DNA from: an uncultured Bacteroidales bacterium
Lineage (GTDB): Bacteria; Bacteroidota; Bacteroidia; Bacteroidales; UBA932
Assembly: GCA_947168065.1 (NCBI GenBank)
Contig: CAMVKH010000002.1
Span: 124,001-188,000 of the forward strand
DNA: 64,000 nucleotides
Reading direction: 5' to 3'
The stretch's first letter is position 1. Each line of letters opens with the position of its first letter. Position numbers and translations under genes: made by a program. The notes beneath the pieces were generated by a model, which had not been told where the DNA came from, searched no databases, and saw only the letters and a list, made by a program, of their open reading frames with translations. Positions 1,594-59,926 of the stretch are shown piece by piece.

Positions 1594-3891
1594 ATGAAAA
1601 GTTACCTTAAATTCCTCTCCCGCAACAAGCTCTACACCGCCATCGAGGCGGTGGGGCTGGCCGTGAGCCTGGCGTTTGTGATCATCATAGGTTCCTATGT
1701 ATGGCAGCAATATGCCGTGACGCGGGAGCATCCGGACCGGGAGCGGGTTTATGTGCCTGGGACGCCGGGATTCCCTGCGCTGACGTATGGTTTCCCTGAT
1801 GCCATTGGGGACATTCCGGAAATTGAGTCCGTTTCCAGGATGTGCAATGTAGCTGTACATCCAGTCATTCGGGGAGAGAATACGGAGGCAGAAAGCGTTG
1901 GCGTAGAACCGGCGTTCTTTGAGATATGTCCTCAGTTTCGTTTTGTAGAAGGCTCCGCAGATGTGCTTTCAGCTCCGACCCATGTCATTCTTTCGGCCTC
2001 TTTTGCCAAAAAATACAGCCTTTCGATGGGTGACGCCCTTGACATCAGCGGGAACAGCTATGTGGTGGGTGCCATATTGGACGACCTGAAGGGCACGGTC
2101 ATCAAGCCTTATGATATATTCCTCAATGCTGCTGTTTACAAAGACGACTGGCAGCCTTTCGACAACTATGGCAGCACGGTCACGTTACTCAAGGTCCGGC
2201 CCGGGACAGACAGGAAAGTATTCTATGACAAATTGGAAGCCGTTTGCAAAGATGTTTATTCAGGCATCTATGGGCAGGCTTTCTTTGAACATCTGGAACT
2301 TTCAAGGTATGATGAATTGTTTTTCAAGGAGACGGAGGGATTTTTCAGACATGGAGACAAAGCGACACTCAGAATTCTGATGCTGGTTGGGCTTCTGCTC
2401 CTTCTTTCGGCCATTCTGAACTACATCAACCTGTCTGTCGCTCTCACCGGAAAGAGAGCGAAAGAAATGGCTGTGAGACAGTTGTCAGGAGCATCAAAAG
2501 GCGGCATTATCTGGAAGTACGTAGCTGAATCCATCGCCTTTACCGCCATGTGCTTTGCTGCCGGTCTCTTGCTTGCGGAGGCCTTCTGCCCGGCCATGAA
2601 TGCGCTCTTGAACAATCCGGATATCCCGATAAAAGTCATCTGGTCTCCGGGGTATGTATTGGCATATATCGTCATCATTCTGCTTGTGGGAGCGCTCTGC
2701 GGCATCTTCCCGGCCCTGATGGCAGGCCGCTACAAACCCGTGGACGTGATGAAAGGCGGATACCGGCGCAAGAGCAAAATGGTGTTCAGCAAGGTTTTCA
2801 TCGTGCTGCAAAACACTTTGGCCGTCATCCTGATAGCGCTGGCCGTCACGATGGAGGCGCAAATGCGAAAGACACAGGAGCGACCGATGAACTGCAACAT
2901 CGAGAACATCTTCTTCCTCAAAGTTTTTTCCGGCGAAGACGATGCTCCTTTGAAAGATGCCCTTGAGGCGCTTCCCTGCGTAAGACGGATCGGAAAGAGT
3001 TCAGGTGTGCCAGGCAGTATCAATATGGGCCAGTACAGCACAACCCGGGAAGGACAGGACATCCTCTACATGCTGATCAGGCTGGACAGTACTGCATTCT
3101 CAATGTTCGGATTTGAAATTCTGGAGGATTTCCATGCGCCACAATTCAACAGCGTATGGTTCTCGGACAAGAGTTTTGCCGCTACTGGGTTCGATACTGA
3201 CTATCATGACATCAGCGGCACGTTGAGCAGACGGACGAAGGGATGCGAACAGGTTGCCGGCGTCTTCAAATCCTTTCCGACCAACAGTGCCAATATGGGA
3301 GAAGAAGACTATGCCATTGTTTCGTTGATGCGCTCTGATGACATTCCTTTCGCCGGATGGGTCATAGAAACCACCCCGGACCGGAAAGCGGCGAAAGCGC
3401 AGATCATGGACGCTTACGAAAACTATATCAAGGGCAAGCAGAACTACGGCAGCTTAGCTTTCTGGATTGACGAGAATATCGCTGAGGCCTGGAGACCGGC
3501 CCGTAACAATATGAGGCTGGTGGAGATCTTTATGCTCCTCTCCATTATCATCGCTCTGCTGGGCCTGGTGGCCATGAGTACCTATTATGCCGATGAAAAA
3601 TCCCGTGACATTGCCGTCCGGAAGGTCTTCGGCGGTACAATGGACACCGAGGCATGGAGAACGATACGCGAATACATGGTGCTTGTAGGGATAGCCTGCA
3701 TCATCGGCATTCCGATTGCGGTCTATGCCGCGCAGGAATACCTCAAAGATTTCATTTACAGGCTGGAAGGCTATTGGTGGATTTTCGTGGTGGCCGTGCT
3801 GCTCACCGGGCTTATCGCTTTTGTCTCCGTCATCTGGCAGGTATTGAAGTCGGCAAAGACGAATCCGGCCATAGAATTGAAAAAAGAATAA
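1594..3891 (+). CDS. ABC transporter permease, FtsX/MacB-type
   Basis: 765 aa ORF with N-terminal TM and MacB-PCD-like region plus two FtsX domains (KRAKEMAVRQLSGA; RDIAVRKVFGGTM). Paralog of the flanking ORFs. Confidence 0.88.
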   Translation: MKSYLKFLSRNKLYTAIEAVGLAVSLAFVIIIGSYVWQQYAVTREHPDRERVYVPGTPGFPALTYGFPDAIGDIPEIESVSRMCNVAVHPVIRGENTEAESVGVEPAFFEICPQFRFVEGSADVLSAPTHVILSASFAKKYSLSMGDALDISGNSYVVGAILDDLKGTVIKPYDIFLNAAVYKDDWQPFDNYGSTVTLLKVRPGTDRKVFYDKLEAVCKDVYSGIYGQAFFEHLELSRYDELFFKETEGFFRHGDKATLRILMLVGLLLLLSAILNYINLSVALTGKRAKEMAVRQLSGASKGGIIWKYVAESIAFTAMCFAAGLLLAEAFCPAMNALLNNPDIPIKVIWSPGYVLAYIVIILLVGALCGIFPALMAGRYKPVDVMKGGYRRKSKMVFSKVFIVLQNTLAVILIALAVTMEAQMRKTQERPMNCNIENIFFLKVFSGEDDAPLKDALEALPCVRRIGKSSGVPGSINMGQYSTTREGQDILYMLIRLDSTAFSMFGFEILEDFHAPQFNSVWFSDKSFAATGFDTDYHDISGTLSRRTKGCEQVAGVFKSFPTNSANMGEEDYAIVSLMRSDDIPFAGWVIETTPDRKAAKAQIMDAYENYIKGKQNYGSLAFWIDENIAEAWRPARNNMRLVEIFMLLSIIIALLGLVAMSTYYADEKSRDIAVRKVFGGTMDTEAWRTIREYMVLVGIACIIGIPIAVYAAQEYLKDFIYRLEGYWWIFVVAVLLTGLIAFVSVIWQVLKSAKTNPAIELKKE

Positions 3892-25023: not shown

Positions 25024-26676
25024 ATGGCAAATTATCTTGAAGTGGCCAAGTCTTGGCTCAGCAACAGTTACGATGTGGAAACCCAGCGCGAAGTGCTGGA
25101 AATGATGAAGGGCGATCCGAAAGCCCTGGAAGACGCTTTTTACCGCACGCTGGAGTTCGGTACGGGCGGCCTGCGCGGCGTGATGGGCGCCGGCACCAAC
25201 CGGATGAACCGCTACACTGTCGCCATGGCCACCCAGGGACTGGCCAACTATCTCAAGAAGAATTTCAAGGATCAGAAGATCTCGGTGGTGATTTCCTACG
25301 ACAGCCGCAACAACAGTCAGCTCTTCGCCCGGGTATCCGCCGGGGTGCTGATCGCCAACGACATCTTCGTCTATATTTTCGACAACATCCGTCCCACGCC
25401 GGAACTCAGCTTCGCCATCCGGCACCTGGGCTGCAAGGCCGGCATCATGATCACGGCTTCGCACAATCCCAAGGAGTACAATGGCTACAAGGTGTTCTGG
25501 GAGGACGGTGCGCAGATCATCACTCCGCACGACAAGAACATCATCGAGGAGGTGGGCAAGATCACCTCGATGGATCAGGTCAAGTACGCTGAAAACAGCT
25601 TCCCGCAGGGCATCGGCGCTGAAGTCGACCAGGCTTTCCTCGACAGCCAGCTGTCGCTGCTCCTTTCGCCGGACAGCGTCAGGCGCCACAGCGACATGAA
25701 GATCGCCTACACGCCGCTGCACGGCACGGGTGTCCGCCTGGTTCCTGCCGGCCTGAAGCAGGCGGGCTTCACGAATGTGTTCCATGTGGACGCGCAGGAT
25801 GTGAGCGACGGCAACTTCCCGACGGTGGTCTCGCCGAACCCGGAGGAGCCGACGGCCATGCGGATGGTCATGGAACGGGCCGACGCCGTGGGCGCCGACA
25901 TCGCGCTGGGCACCGATCCCGACGCCGACCGCGTGGGCTGCGCCGTGCGCAACGACAAGGGTGAAATGGTGCTTCTGACCGGCAACCAGATCGCCACGAT
26001 CGTCACGAGCTACATCCTCACGCGCTGGCATGAACTCGGCCGGATCGACGGCCGCCAGTTCGTGGTCAAGACCATCGTGACGACGGACCTGCTGAAGAAA
26101 ATCTGTGCAAAATACGGCGTTGAACTCTTCGACGTGCTGACCGGTTTCAAATACATCGCCGACAAGCAGCATCTGTACGAGGGCAAGAAGACCTTCATCT
26201 GCGGCGGCGAGGAGAGCAACGGCTTCAATGTCGGCAGTTTCGTGCGCGACAAGGATTCCGTCATCACCTGCTGCATGCTCTGTGAATGTGCGGCCTGGCT
26301 GGCCGACCGGGGCCAGTCGCTCTACGGCTATCTGCAGGAGATCTACGCGGAGTACGGCTACTTCAAGGAGAGCCTGCTTTCGGTCACGAAGAAAGGCAAG
26401 AGCGGCATCGAGGCGATCCAGCAGATGATGGTCGACTTCCGCGCCCAGGCCCCGAAGGCACTCGCCGGCTCGCCGGTGGTGAAGGTCGTGGACTACAACA
26501 AGCCGGAAGAGACGGGTCTGCCGAAGTCGAACGTGCTGCAGTTCTTCAGCGAGAACGGCTGCAAGGTGACGGTGCGTCCTTCGGGCACGGAGCCGAAGAT
26601 CAAGTTCTACTTCAGCGCCTGCGGCCCCGACGCCGACGCCCTGAACGTCGCTCTCCGCGAGCAATTCTCCGTTTAA
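25024..26676 (+). CDS. Phospho-sugar mutase (phosphoglucomutase/phosphomannomutase family)
   Basis: GTGGLRGVMGAGTNRMN, MITASHNPKEYNGYKV, GTDPDADRVGCAV, GGEESNGFNVGSFVRDKDSV, VRPSGTEPKIKFY. Confidence 0.95.
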   Translation: MANYLEVAKSWLSNSYDVETQREVLEMMKGDPKALEDAFYRTLEFGTGGLRGVMGAGTNRMNRYTVAMATQGLANYLKKNFKDQKISVVISYDSRNNSQLFARVSAGVLIANDIFVYIFDNIRPTPELSFAIRHLGCKAGIMITASHNPKEYNGYKVFWEDGAQIITPHDKNIIEEVGKITSMDQVKYAENSFPQGIGAEVDQAFLDSQLSLLLSPDSVRRHSDMKIAYTPLHGTGVRLVPAGLKQAGFTNVFHVDAQDVSDGNFPTVVSPNPEEPTAMRMVMERADAVGADIALGTDPDADRVGCAVRNDKGEMVLLTGNQIATIVTSYILTRWHELGRIDGRQFVVKTIVTTDLLKKICAKYGVELFDVLTGFKYIADKQHLYEGKKTFICGGEESNGFNVGSFVRDKDSVITCCMLCECAAWLADRGQSLYGYLQEIYAEYGYFKESLLSVTKKGKSGIEAIQQMMVDFRAQAPKALAGSPVVKVVDYNKPEETGLPKSNVLQFFSENGCKVTVRPSGTEPKIKFYFSACGPDADALNVALREQFSV

Positions 26677-26685
26677 TTTAAGTCC

Positions 26686-26840
26686 GGTTTGCTTGCTGGG
26701 CGCTCTGGTTATTACTCCGGAACCGTCTCGCTACGCTCGACCCCTCCCATGCTGACGCATGGGCCCCTCCCTCTTACAGTGCCGAGGGTGGCATGGGTTC
26801 CGGAGTAATGAACCACCCGCGCCAGTGACGCAAGCAAACC
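26686..26840. repeat. Large imperfect palindromic intergenic element (copy 1)
   Basis: Outer stem GGTTTGCTTGC...GCAAGCAAACC. Inner stem TGGTTATTACTCCGGAACC (26706-26724) / GGTTCCGGAGTAATGAACCA (26796-26815). Apical CCCATGC-TGAC-GCATGGG (26746-26763). Confidence 0.85.
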
Positions 26841-26851
26841 CTGTCCATGAA

Positions 26852-28117
26852 ATGAAATCATACGAGGATAAAATAAACTGGCTGTTCAGTCAGTTTCCCT
26901 CCTACCAGAAAGTGGGGAAAGTGGCGTACAAGCCGGGGATCGAAACGATGGAGGCGTTCGATGCGGCGCTCGGGCATCCGCACCGGCGCTTCCGCTCCAT
27001 CCATGTCGCCGGAACCAACGGGAAAGGATCGACCTCCCACATGCTGGCGGCGGGCCTGGCCGCTTGCAGCCTGAAAGTCGGCCTGTATACCTCACCGCAC
27101 CTGGTGGATTTCCGCGAACGGATGAAGATTGTGGAAGGCGATGGCTTCCGGATGGTTCCGAAGGAATTCGTCGAAAGTTTCATCGATCGCTGGCAAGGCT
27201 TTTTCGAGGAGCACAAACCGTCGTTCTTCGAAATCACGACCGGGATGGCTTTCGCTTTCTTTGCGGATGAGAAGGTGGACGTGGCCGTTATCGAGACGGG
27301 TTTGGGCGGGCGGCTCGACTCGACCAACGTCATCACGCCCATCCTGAGCATCATTACCAATATCGGCCTGGAGCACTGCGAACACCTGGGTTATACGCTG
27401 GCGGCCATTGCCGGCGAGAAGGCCGGCATCATCAAGCCCGGCGTACCGGCCGTCGTCGGGGAATTCACCCCAGAGACCCGTCCGGTGTTCGAGGCGAAGG
27501 CCGCTGCCTGCGGCAGCCTCCTTACCTTTGCCGTGGAGGCGCCGCCGTGTCTTTCGCTGAAGGTGGCTGACCTGGATCTCCCCGGAGACTACCAGGAAAG
27601 GAACCTTTGCACACTCTCCGCCGCCGTCGGTATCCTGCAGCCTATGCTGGGCTTCGACCTCGAAGCCTTCCGCACTGGTGTCCGCCACGCCGCCCGGAAC
27701 ACGGGCCTGCATGGCCGCTGGGAGACGCTGCGTGCAGCCGATCCCGTTCAGCACAAGGCACAAATCATCTGCGACACGGGCCATAACGCACATGGCCTTC
27801 GCTGGGTTGCCGAGCAGGTGGACCGCATCTCCTGCGACTACGAAAACGTTTTCTTCATCCTGGGCCTGGCCCGCGAGAAAGATGTCGACGCCATCGCACC
27901 GTTGCTGCCGCGCAACGTCCATTACATCTGGACGCAGGCCTCCAGCTCCCGCGCCCTGCCGGCGGCGGAGCTGGCCAACGCCATGTCCGACCACGGCTTG
28001 AATGGCCGCGTGACCTGTCGCGTCGCCGACGCCCTGACCCTGGCGGAAAGCATGGCCGCCGATAAAGATCTGATCTTCATCGGCGGCAGCAACTTCGTCG
28101 TGTGCGAAGTCCTCTAG
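26852..28117 (+). CDS. folC: Bifunctional folylpolyglutamate synthase/dihydrofolate synthase
   Basis: VAGTNGKGSTSHMLAAGL, YTSPHLVDFRERMKI, ETGLGGRLDSTNVI. The track start at 26759 lies in the palindromic repeat; the true start is likely ATG 26852 (MKSYEDKINWLFSQFPSYQ). Confidence 0.94.
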   Translation: MKSYEDKINWLFSQFPSYQKVGKVAYKPGIETMEAFDAALGHPHRRFRSIHVAGTNGKGSTSHMLAAGLAACSLKVGLYTSPHLVDFRERMKIVEGDGFRMVPKEFVESFIDRWQGFFEEHKPSFFEITTGMAFAFFADEKVDVAVIETGLGGRLDSTNVITPILSIITNIGLEHCEHLGYTLAAIAGEKAGIIKPGVPAVVGEFTPETRPVFEAKAAACGSLLTFAVEAPPCLSLKVADLDLPGDYQERNLCTLSAAVGILQPMLGFDLEAFRTGVRHAARNTGLHGRWETLRAADPVQHKAQIICDTGHNAHGLRWVAEQVDRISCDYENVFFILGLAREKDVDAIAPLLPRNVHYIWTQASSSRALPAAELANAMSDHGLNGRVTCRVADALTLAESMAADKDLIFIGGSNFVVCEVL

Positions 28118-57531: not shown

Positions 57532-58239
57532 ATGAAAAACACACCTACACCCCATATCGGGGCCGAAAATGGCGACATTGCACCCATCGTGCTGATGGCT
57601 GGCGACCCCCTTCGCGCAAAGTTCATTGCTGAGAATTATCTGGAGAATCCTGTCCAGTTCAACGATATCCGCGGCATGCTGGGCTTCACGGGAACCTATA
57701 AGGACCGTCCGGTGAGCGTGATGGGCCATGGCATGGGCATCCCGTCCATCGGCATCTACACCTGGGAGCTCTTCAACTTCTTTGGCGTGGAAACTATCAT
57801 CCGGATCGGCTCCGCCGGCGCCTACCATCCGGATCTGAAACTGGGCGACCTGGTCCTGGCACAGGCTGCCTGCACCGATTCCAACTACGGCGCGCAGTTC
57901 GAGTTGCCCGGCACGTTCGCGCCGATCGCCGACTTCGACCTGCTCCGTCGCGCCGCCGATGCCTGCGAACAACTCGGCTACCATTACAAAGTGGGCAACG
58001 TGCTCTCGTCCGATGCCTTCTATTGCCAGCACTCGAAAGAAGGCAACTGGCGGAAGATGGGGGTATTGGCGGTGGAAATGGAAGCCTCGGCCCTCTACCT
58101 GAACGCGGCATTCGCCCATAAGAAAGCGCTGACGATCTGCACCATTTCCGACATCGTCCTTACCGGCGAAGGCCTCTCGGCCGAAGCCCGCCGCACTTCC
58201 TTCACCCACATGATGGAAGTCGCCTTCACTTTGGTTTAG
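57532..58239 (+). CDS. deoD: DeoD-type purine-nucleoside phosphorylase
   Basis: MKNTPTPHIGAENGDIAPIVLMAGDPLRAKFIAENYL; GHGMGIPSIGIYTWELF; RIGSAGAY; AVEMEASALY. Track N-terminal extension from 57409 rejected. Confidence 0.95.
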   Translation: MKNTPTPHIGAENGDIAPIVLMAGDPLRAKFIAENYLENPVQFNDIRGMLGFTGTYKDRPVSVMGHGMGIPSIGIYTWELFNFFGVETIIRIGSAGAYHPDLKLGDLVLAQAACTDSNYGAQFELPGTFAPIADFDLLRRAADACEQLGYHYKVGNVLSSDAFYCQHSKEGNWRKMGVLAVEMEASALYLNAAFAHKKALTICTISDIVLTGEGLSAEARRTSFTHMMEVAFTLV

Positions 58240-58255
58240 TGTAAACAGTCTGTAG

Positions 58256-58337
58256 CCTGTTCGCCCGGCGCGGGTGGTATTCGGCGAAGCGACCTTTTTT
58301 CGGGAGCGAGACGAATACCAGAGCGCCCAAGAACAGG
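58256..58337. repeat. Large imperfect palindromic intergenic element (copy 2, inverted relative to copy 1)
   Basis: CCTGTTC (58256-58262)/GAACAGG (58331-58337); TGGTATTCG (58275-58283)/CGAATACCA (58312-58320); T6 in the loop. Minus strand shares TGGGCGCTCTGGT and ACCACCCGCGCC with 26686-26840. Confidence 0.8.
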
Positions 58338-58351
58338 TCAGTAGATCAATA

Positions 58352-59926
58352 TCATTCAGGACGATGATCGGCGTTGGCGACATCGAGACCAACGGCGAAC
58401 ATCATGCGGATGTGAGCAAGCGTACCGGCGAAATCCCAGTCATCGCGATACTCATCACTCGGCTTGTGATACCAGTCCGAACGAGGATACTTGTTCGGCC
58501 GTGAAGGATCCACCAGATCCTTGCCGTACTCGATTACCACGGCCGGAACCCCCTTCTTGACAAAATTGAAATGATCGGAACGGAAATACCAACCGTCCGA
58601 ATTGTCATTGTTCCAGACGACATAACGCCCCTGCGCACCCGCAGCACCCTCGATGTAACGGTCGAGACCACACTTGCCGCCGCCGAGCACCACCACGTCA
58701 TAGGTGAGCGGCTCAGGCGCAATACAGTCGAAATTGATGCACGCCGCCGTCTTGTCCATGGGGAAAGCTGGGTGGGCACAGTAGAATTCCGTTCCGAAAA
58801 GACCACTCTCTTCCAGCGTCGGAATCAGGAAAAGCATGGAACGGCGGGGACGAACCGGCAGCTCCGCGTACTTTTTGGCCAGCAGCAGCACCGCCGCCAT
58901 GCCGGAACCATTGTCAGAAGCCCCGTTGTAGATGCCGTCGCCCGTCTCGTCGGGAGAACCGATGCCGAAATGATCCCAGTGCGCGCTGAACACCACCGCT
59001 TCGTCTCTCAGGTCGCTGCCGGGCAGGACACCGGCCACATTGCAGGTCTGCTCGATCTGGTAGTCGACCCGCATCTCGAGCGAGGTCCTGGCTTTGAGCA
59101 CGAAAGCGCGGAAGCCGGGCTGCTTGGCTGCGTCGAGCGTAGCTTCGAAATCGACGCCGGCCGCTTCGAAAAGCTTGCGGCAGCCGTTTTCATGCAACCA
59201 GCCTTTGATGGCCAGGGCGTCGGCATTGCCCGTGGCCGCATCGTAGAGAGCCAGATTGCTACCGGTGTGGTTGGCGGCCACGTTCCAGCCATAACTGGCA
59301 GCCGCGGTGTTGTGGAGGACCAGACAGCCGGCCGCGCCCCTGCGCTGCGCCTCCTCGAACTTGTAGGTCCAGCGCCCGTAATAGGTCATGTTCTTCCCCT
59401 GAAAAAGCGACGCGTCGTAGAACCCCGGGTCGTTAACCATGGCGATGATGATTTTGCCCTTGACGTCGACGCCGTCGAAATCGTTCCAGCCGAATTCCGG
59501 GGCATCGATGCCGAAGCCGCAGAAGACGAACTCCGTGTTCGGAAGCTCCACCTTGCCGCTTGCCCGGGCGGTCCAGATCACCAGGTCGTCGGGGAAGAGC
59601 AGGTCCACGCGCCGGCGGCTGCCCTTCACGCGCACCTTGTCGCCCACAGGCCGGCAGACCGTGGAAATTGTCTGAACGGGCTGGAAATAACTGTCGCCGA
59701 AGGCAGGCTGCAGGCCGATCGCCTTCATCTCACCGGCGAGGTAATCGACGGTCTTGGCTTCGTATTCCGTCATGGGCAGGCGACCGCCGAAATCGTCGGA
59801 CCCGAGCGTCCGGATCCACTCGCGTAGGAGCGCTTCCTCCCGGGAAGGGTGGGTGAGGGTCTGGGCGGTGGCGGGAATGACCAGGCACGCCGTCAGCGCA
59901 AGAAGTGTGAGGCAGAATTTTTTCAT
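58352..59926 (-). CDS. M28 family metallopeptidase
   Basis: Signal peptide; VVFSAHWDHFGIG, GASDNGSGMAAVLLLAK, IPTLEESGLFGTEFYCAHP. Confidence 0.93.
   Translation of the reverse strand: MKKFCLTLLALTACLVIPATAQTLTHPSREEALLREWIRTLGSDDFGGRLPMTEYEAKTVDYLAGEMKAIGLQPAFGDSYFQPVQTISTVCRPVGDKVRVKGSRRRVDLLFPDDLVIWTARASGKVELPNTEFVFCGFGIDAPEFGWNDFDGVDVKGKIIIAMVNDPGFYDASLFQGKNMTYYGRWTYKFEEAQRRGAAGCLVLHNTAAASYGWNVAANHTGSNLALYDAATGNADALAIKGWLHENGCRKLFEAAGVDFEATLDAAKQPGFRAFVLKARTSLEMRVDYQIEQTCNVAGVLPGSDLRDEAVVFSAHWDHFGIGSPDETGDGIYNGASDNGSGMAAVLLLAKKYAELPVRPRRSMLFLIPTLEESGLFGTEFYCAHPAFPMDKTAACINFDCIAPEPLTYDVVVLGGGKCGLDRYIEGAAGAQGRYVVWNNDNSDGWYFRSDHFNFVKKGVPAVVIEYGKDLVDPSRPNKYPRSDWYHKPSDEYRDDWDFAGTLAHIRMMFAVGLDVANADHRPE

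Follow-up and report, generated by a model that had tools for sequence, protein, structure and literature searches.

The palindrome at positions 58256-58337 of the window (the whole stretch of 64,000 nt analysed here) is best explained as a short, non-coding and non-autonomous palindromic repeat, similar to the REP/BIME or PIT repeats, from a high-copy family of a rumen Bacteroidales genus, the members of which would spread as folded single strands through an enzyme that acts in trans and recognises the fixed loops or the core, and of which the short members would derive from long ones. We assign to this reading a probability of about 0.7. A sequence-only reading had described the element as the second member of a palindromic family with one other copy in the window (copy 1), and the follow-up confirms this and shows that, far from being a pair, both belong to a high-copy family.

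Copy 2, whose sequence was confirmed at these coordinates, lies in a 112-nt spacer between two convergent genes that end at 58239 and 58352. The strand that runs from GCTCTGG to ACCACCC is the minus strand, and the one that carries the GGG/GA and GA/GA loops is the plus strand, which reads CCTGTTC-GCCC-GGCGC-GGG-TGGTATTCG...T6...CGAATACCA-GA-GCGCC-CAA-GAACAGG. The two copies, their neighbours and the parts of copy 2 are the following:

25024-26676, plus strand: phosphoglucomutase/phosphomannomutase gene (PF02878-80), upstream of copy 1
26686-26840, minus strand (strand of the match to model R2, see below): copy 1, long family member with a three-branched core (R2 E 4.3e-35, a circular score, copy 1 being in the R2 seed)
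26852-28117, plus strand: Mur ligase / folylpolyglutamate synthase-like gene (PF08245, PF02875), downstream of copy 1
57532-58239, plus strand: nucleosidase/phosphorylase gene PNP_UDP_1 (PF01048), converging on copy 2
58256-58337, minus strand: copy 2, short family member, between two convergent genes
58256-58262, plus strand: 5' arm of the copy 2 outer stem, CCTGTTC, which pairs with 58331-58337 in the fold
58267-58271, plus strand: module stem GGCGC, which pairs with GCGCC at 58323-58327 and is invariant in alignment A3
58272-58274, plus strand: GGG, one side of an asymmetric internal loop that is conserved, with GA at 58321-58322 facing it
58275-58320, plus strand: variable inner stem with a T6-rich loop (58295-58300)
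58323-58327, plus strand: 3' side of the module stem, GCGCC (sequence, fold and alignment)
58331-58337, plus strand: 3' arm of the outer stem, GAACAGG (sequence and fold)
58352-59926, minus strand: M28-family peptidase gene (PF04389), converging on copy 2

The modules said to be common to both copies are indeed shared: the window has exactly two occurrences of the 13-mer TGGGCGCTCTGGT, at 26697 (plus) and 58317 (minus), and exactly two of the 12-mer ACCACCCGCGCC, and the common arrangement is GGCGC-TCTGGT...ACCACCC-GCGCC. The outer stems differ and yet pair, as had been noticed, with CCTGTTC/GAACAGG in copy 2 and GGTTTGCTTGC/GCAAGCAAACC in copy 1 (26686-26696 / 26830-26840), and the inner stems are wholly different too, each still being paired. 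Copy 1 is about 70 nt longer, the extra part being a conserved structured core. Both copies fold better than 200 of 200 shuffled sequences, with z-scores of −3.9 (minus) and −4.4 (plus) for copy 2 and −5.8 for copy 1. A GTAG tetranucleotide (58252-58255, plus strand) stands directly 5' of the copy 2 outer stem, as in classical REPs, probably by chance; it is not present in the other copies inspected.

A gapped pattern retrieved more copies from the source genome and its congeners, with inner and outer stems that are new each time. Model R1, built from eight copies, gives 24 matches at E ≤ 0.1 in the source genome, at about 22 places; 19 of 40 congeners have matches too, with up to 57 per genome, whereas the order's 197 other genomes that were scanned have none. 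Its E values for the two window copies (5e-12 and 9e-8) are circular, both being in the R1 seed. Model R2, built from 20 long copies (copy 1 included), finds 21 long copies in the source genome, matches in 29 of the 40 congeners (up to 49 per genome), copies in three other Bacteroidales genera from three families, and one further weak match only in a phylum sample of 396. The long class measures about 153 nt, and many of its copies are 86-91% identical to copy 1 and share its two sharp end points. A strict pattern run against 84,980 species was found in Bacteroidales MAGs only, save one chance match in Synechococcus, and nearly all of these MAGs come from rumen or other ruminant samples; the named comparison genomes are all metagenome bins. 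The covariance-model scan that the sequence-only reading had proposed therefore yields many further copies, and their stems vary. A viral or phage origin was rejected, as the viral contigs and phages searched gave no match. The family resembles the structured RNA families of Rfam in its conserved secondary structure and compensatory changes, but neither window copy has a gathering-score match in Rfam release 15, with nothing meaningful up to an E value of 5.

From the outside in, the short copies consist of an outer stem that varies, in many copies a GNA/GNA loop (GTA, GGA, GAA or GCA), a short stem, the GGG/GA loop, an inner stem that likewise varies and often holds GA/GA loops, and a T-rich loop. 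The GGG/GA loop occurs 98 times across 107 distinct copies; its reading as a kink-turn was rejected because the loop sizes do not fit. The 107 distinct cores carry 66 different 12-mers beside TGGT, which are still paired (68% Watson-Crick versus at most 48% when the arms are shuffled), and the covariation score of the R1 alignment is reached by 0 of 500 shuffles. Changes on both sides of the stems preserve the pairing to a degree that shuffled controls do not approach, in agreement with the selected structure that had been suggested, and a family fold under selection is the best reading of these data. Tandem arrays of the element 5' arm occur just upstream of a complete copy at two loci (L003:1404-1500, with 41-nt units AAGGTTTGCACC...CGCCT, and L149 around 4750), as if formed by slippage or template switching.

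In the long copies a covarying closing stem encloses a more elaborate core, illustrated here by copy 1:

26703-26820, minus strand: long core, closing stem and three-branched core (R2 match)
26725-26741, minus strand: P4 mini-hairpin GUC-GA-GCGUAGC-GA-GAC (GCGNAGC; sequence and alignment)
26746-26763, minus strand: P3 hairpin CCCAUGC/GCAUGGG, with U-A, A-U and C-G at one pair
26769-26773, minus strand: 3' side of P2b, GAGGG, the partner of CCCUC in the loop of P2a (sequence and covariation)
26780-26793, minus strand: P2a hairpin UGCC-ACCCUC-GGCA of the putative pseudoknot (sequence and covariation)

Among distant copies the P2a hairpin appears as GCC/GGC, AACC/GGUU, AAGC/GCUU, GGC/GCC and AGAC/GUCU, while the loop helix P2b appears as CCCUC/GAGGG, CCCGC/GCGGG, CCCGU/ACGGG, CCCAU/AUGGG, CCCAC/GUGGG and CCCCC/GGGGG. 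The rows for these two helices were hand-cut from the matches and their presence in the loci was verified. The covariation of P2a and of P2b each exceeds 2000 of 2000 row shuffles, and 0 of 500 shuffles reach the score of the R2 alignment; all these shuffle controls, that of R1 included, ignore relatedness. At the centre of the long copies there is thus a core with three branches and a putative H-type pseudoknot.

In the long core a single C-rich tract precedes two that are G-rich, a layout that it shares with the PIT/TMECO repeats (Holder et al. 2015, PMC4666352), which are also intergenic, occur in inverted pairs within variable surroundings and show high site turnover between close relatives (PMC4666352). 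Neither function nor mobiliser is known for the PIT repeats. TMECO-like intergenic repeats on Azospirillum plasmids (L335-L339; R2 28.5 bits), which resemble the PIT/TMECO consensus, have the same P3 insert, GGGGCCCATGCGCAGCATGGG, as the Bacteroidales long core, a likeness that may reflect either homology or convergence. The family could on these grounds be a Bacteroidales branch of PIT/TMECO repeats, with triplex-forming DNA made by the C tract and the two G tracts, but we consider this rather improbable. The consensus CCCTCNCCC-N3-6-GGGNGAGGG-N3-GGGNGAGGG (PMC4666352) does not describe the long cores, where an A breaks the C tract, the first loop exceeds the consensus length, the covarying P3 hairpin fills the second loop, between the G tracts, and long variable stems surround the whole. 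Moreover, changes to GCGGG or GTGGG in the first G tract are matched by the C tract, as fits a pseudoknot helix, and such helix covariation favours the predicted pseudoknot over a triplex.

Copies are mostly intergenic and often lie just downstream of stop codons; some are inside reading frames according to the codon-usage gene calls used here, an ORF-length caller having placed 67 copies inside ORFs. Two near-identical copies (L008 and L011) have unrelated flanks, and orthologous sites in sister genomes may be empty, swapped or inverted, in line with the repeat family proposed from the sequence. The copy 2 site holds a different, unrelated hairpin in sister genome G004, which is 93% identical over a 1.3-kb region, a CATTCCGG...CCGGAAT palindrome in G024 and G027, and just 32 and 17 nt in G001 and G036. 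Elsewhere, orthologous spacers contain the same element (L049, L057, L062 and others), the element with another inner stem (L056/L194 and L064/L189) or the element inverted (L053/L147). The site swaps may reflect either repeated insertion into one short spacer or conversion in place. Where two copies lie close together, their 5' ends face each other in 16 of 18 pairs, which include at least two orthologous duplicates, and the opposite way in none, with a usual gap of 22-56 nt.

Of the MITE/REP-like nature first proposed, the REP-like, high-copy part stands, and the strict MITE, with terminal repeats plus target duplication, is not supported. A classical MITE, as the internally deleted remnant of a DDE transposon, would account for the many copies and for the terminal inverted repeats of the long ones, but these repeats differ between lineages, no target duplication was seen by eye at L008, L011 and the G007 long copies, and no parent transposon was found among the neighbours of copies; this origin is very improbable.

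The hydF gene carries an in-frame insert in G000, G004, G008 and G015 that is absent from G001. Rickettsia palindromic elements are likewise found both between genes and, in frame, within protein genes; they are, however, unrelated in sequence and come from different bacteria, and in-frame insertion in the present family was verified for hydF only. RPE-4 and RPE-6 have been equated with CGTC repeats (PMC3733652). CGTC-type REP-like palindromes (CGTCATTCCGG...CCGGAATC / GTCATGCCCG...CGGGCATC) share spacers with the elements or adjoin them (L220, L221, L182, L027, L012), and those in hydF add repeated MPDQVGHD-like residues. In a separate comparison, the source genome and G036 are about 92-100% identical at L071 / L104 and on contig C3 around 132-142 kb and around 231-235 kb, but only about 78% identical at the copy 2 locus, which suggests recent transfer.

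REP, BIME and REPIN repeats, which are GTAG- and CGTC-tagged palindromes, have in common with this family that they are short, high-copy and mostly intergenic, with inverted pairs 20-100 bp apart (PMC3733652, PMC6006769, PMC3116915), and that a genome has several subfamilies with alternative complementary stems. The family could then be REP/REPIN in the true sense and owe its movement to a Y1 HUH transposase (RAYT/TnpA_REP) of the genus, all the more as Bacteroidetes TnpA_REP genes of atypical structure are known (PMC6006769). From the genus, 68 Y1_Tnp loci were assembled and placed in a tree, with inspection of flanks. Genes of this type are present in 18 of 19 genomes with short copies versus 9 of 21 others, and members of clades A/B/E in 17 of 19 versus 1 of 21; the co-occurrence probably follows a clade of the genus and is confounded with phylogeny as support for a RAYT. 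At the 68 loci, R1 matches are not enriched near the Y1_Tnp genes, being few, with none flanking both sides convincingly, and G021 (96% complete) has 21 long copies without any Y1_Tnp match. The inspected clade A/B/E genes are flanked by their own, different hairpins, and the RAYT was for this reason rejected as the linked partner that the sequence-only reading had suggested looking for. There is also no conserved GTAG/GTGG or CGTC end, GTAG being absent in L003, L008, L011 and the long copies, and the elements are longer and nested, with fixed internal loops and, in long members, a putative pseudoknot core. By behaviour the family is thus REP/BIME-like, but it lacks the GTAG foot and the linked RAYT gene, and its movement by such a transposase seems unlikely to us. 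Near the short or long copies no gene family recurs, except orthologues, and the search turned up no partner gene.

One gene of this type, at L071 (G000:C4:108500-114000, gene 2539-3468), encodes a 309-aa, RAYT-like Y1_Tnp protein and has its own long flanking hairpin. Its relatives in clades A, B and E, of about 305-340 aa and with DHIH and YNNP motifs, also have their own hairpins and are not readily assigned to the TnpA_REP subclasses described in the literature.

The working form of the repeats was addressed through strand bias, which is weak. In tandem spacers, 19 independent sites of short copies would put the GGG/GA strand in the transcript versus 5 that would not (p 0.007), the raw count of 43 to 6 having become 19 to 5 once grouped by site, and the median distance from the upstream stop is 19.5 nt. 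The long copies have no orientation preference (12 versus 12). At stem positions of the short copies, mismatches on the GGG/GA strand are G-U rather than A-C in 25 versus 5 cases. Folding energy was dropped as strand evidence, because the difference is mostly base composition: this sense strand is the more stable one in 104 of 107 copies, and 94% of shuffles behave likewise. Since the orientation bias shrank on grouping and vanished for long copies, we make no firm claim for RNA, which is plausible as the working form; folded single-stranded DNA fits the data as well. Covariation of simple stems alone is no proof of RNA either, because the needs of mobility or palindrome correction also keep pairing.

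A cis-acting RNA at transcript 3' ends, acting as terminator or stabiliser, selected by site and spread mainly by recombination instead of transposition, would agree with the short distance from the stop codon, the G-A-rich loops, the preference for G-U over A-C on one strand, and a fold that is kept although sites swap inner stems. This explanation has to contend with the lack of orientation preference in long members, with pairs that stand head to head whatever the gene direction, with copies within reading frames and with sister genomes that manage without any copy, and we hold it to be rather doubtful.

The preferred reading, a REP/BIME- or PIT-like repeat spread as folded single strands, can be put in the following terms. 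The repeats are able to form nested helices that change in sequence and are joined by internal loops, GGG/GA, GA/GA and GNA/GNA on one strand, that stay fixed; they end in a three-branched core (long members) or a T-rich loop (short members). As folded single strands they would be recognised by a trans-acting enzyme, which would read the fixed loops or the core and not the stem sequence, and therefore the stems would drift while their pairing is kept. The repeats would persist where a hairpin at the 3' end is harmless or useful for transcript ends. The short members would derive from the long ones, which we propose because arms are shared (L286, L294) and the long core is the more widely distributed one, the two observations on which this derivation depends. 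More tentatively, the long members may represent an uncatalogued pseudoknotted three-branched domain, present in at least four Bacteroidales genera, that serves for recognition or function in mobile palindromes of a new class, in which the stems would be free to vary since the mobiliser would read the fixed loops and core only.

We place the family among the palindromic repeats because of its REP-like behaviour and PIT-like layout, yet it lacks the GTAG foot and linked RAYT of the former, departs from the consensus of the latter and has no Rfam counterpart; it is matched to no catalogued family. Bacterial genomes have few non-coding features as common as REP-like and PIT-like repeats, and the present family is an unusually legible one, with two crossing covarying helices, hypervariable paired stems and fixed G-A loops, to which sister genomes with empty, swapped or inverted sites add further. 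It lends itself to two direct questions, namely what protein recognises the core and whether RNA or single-stranded DNA is the working form.
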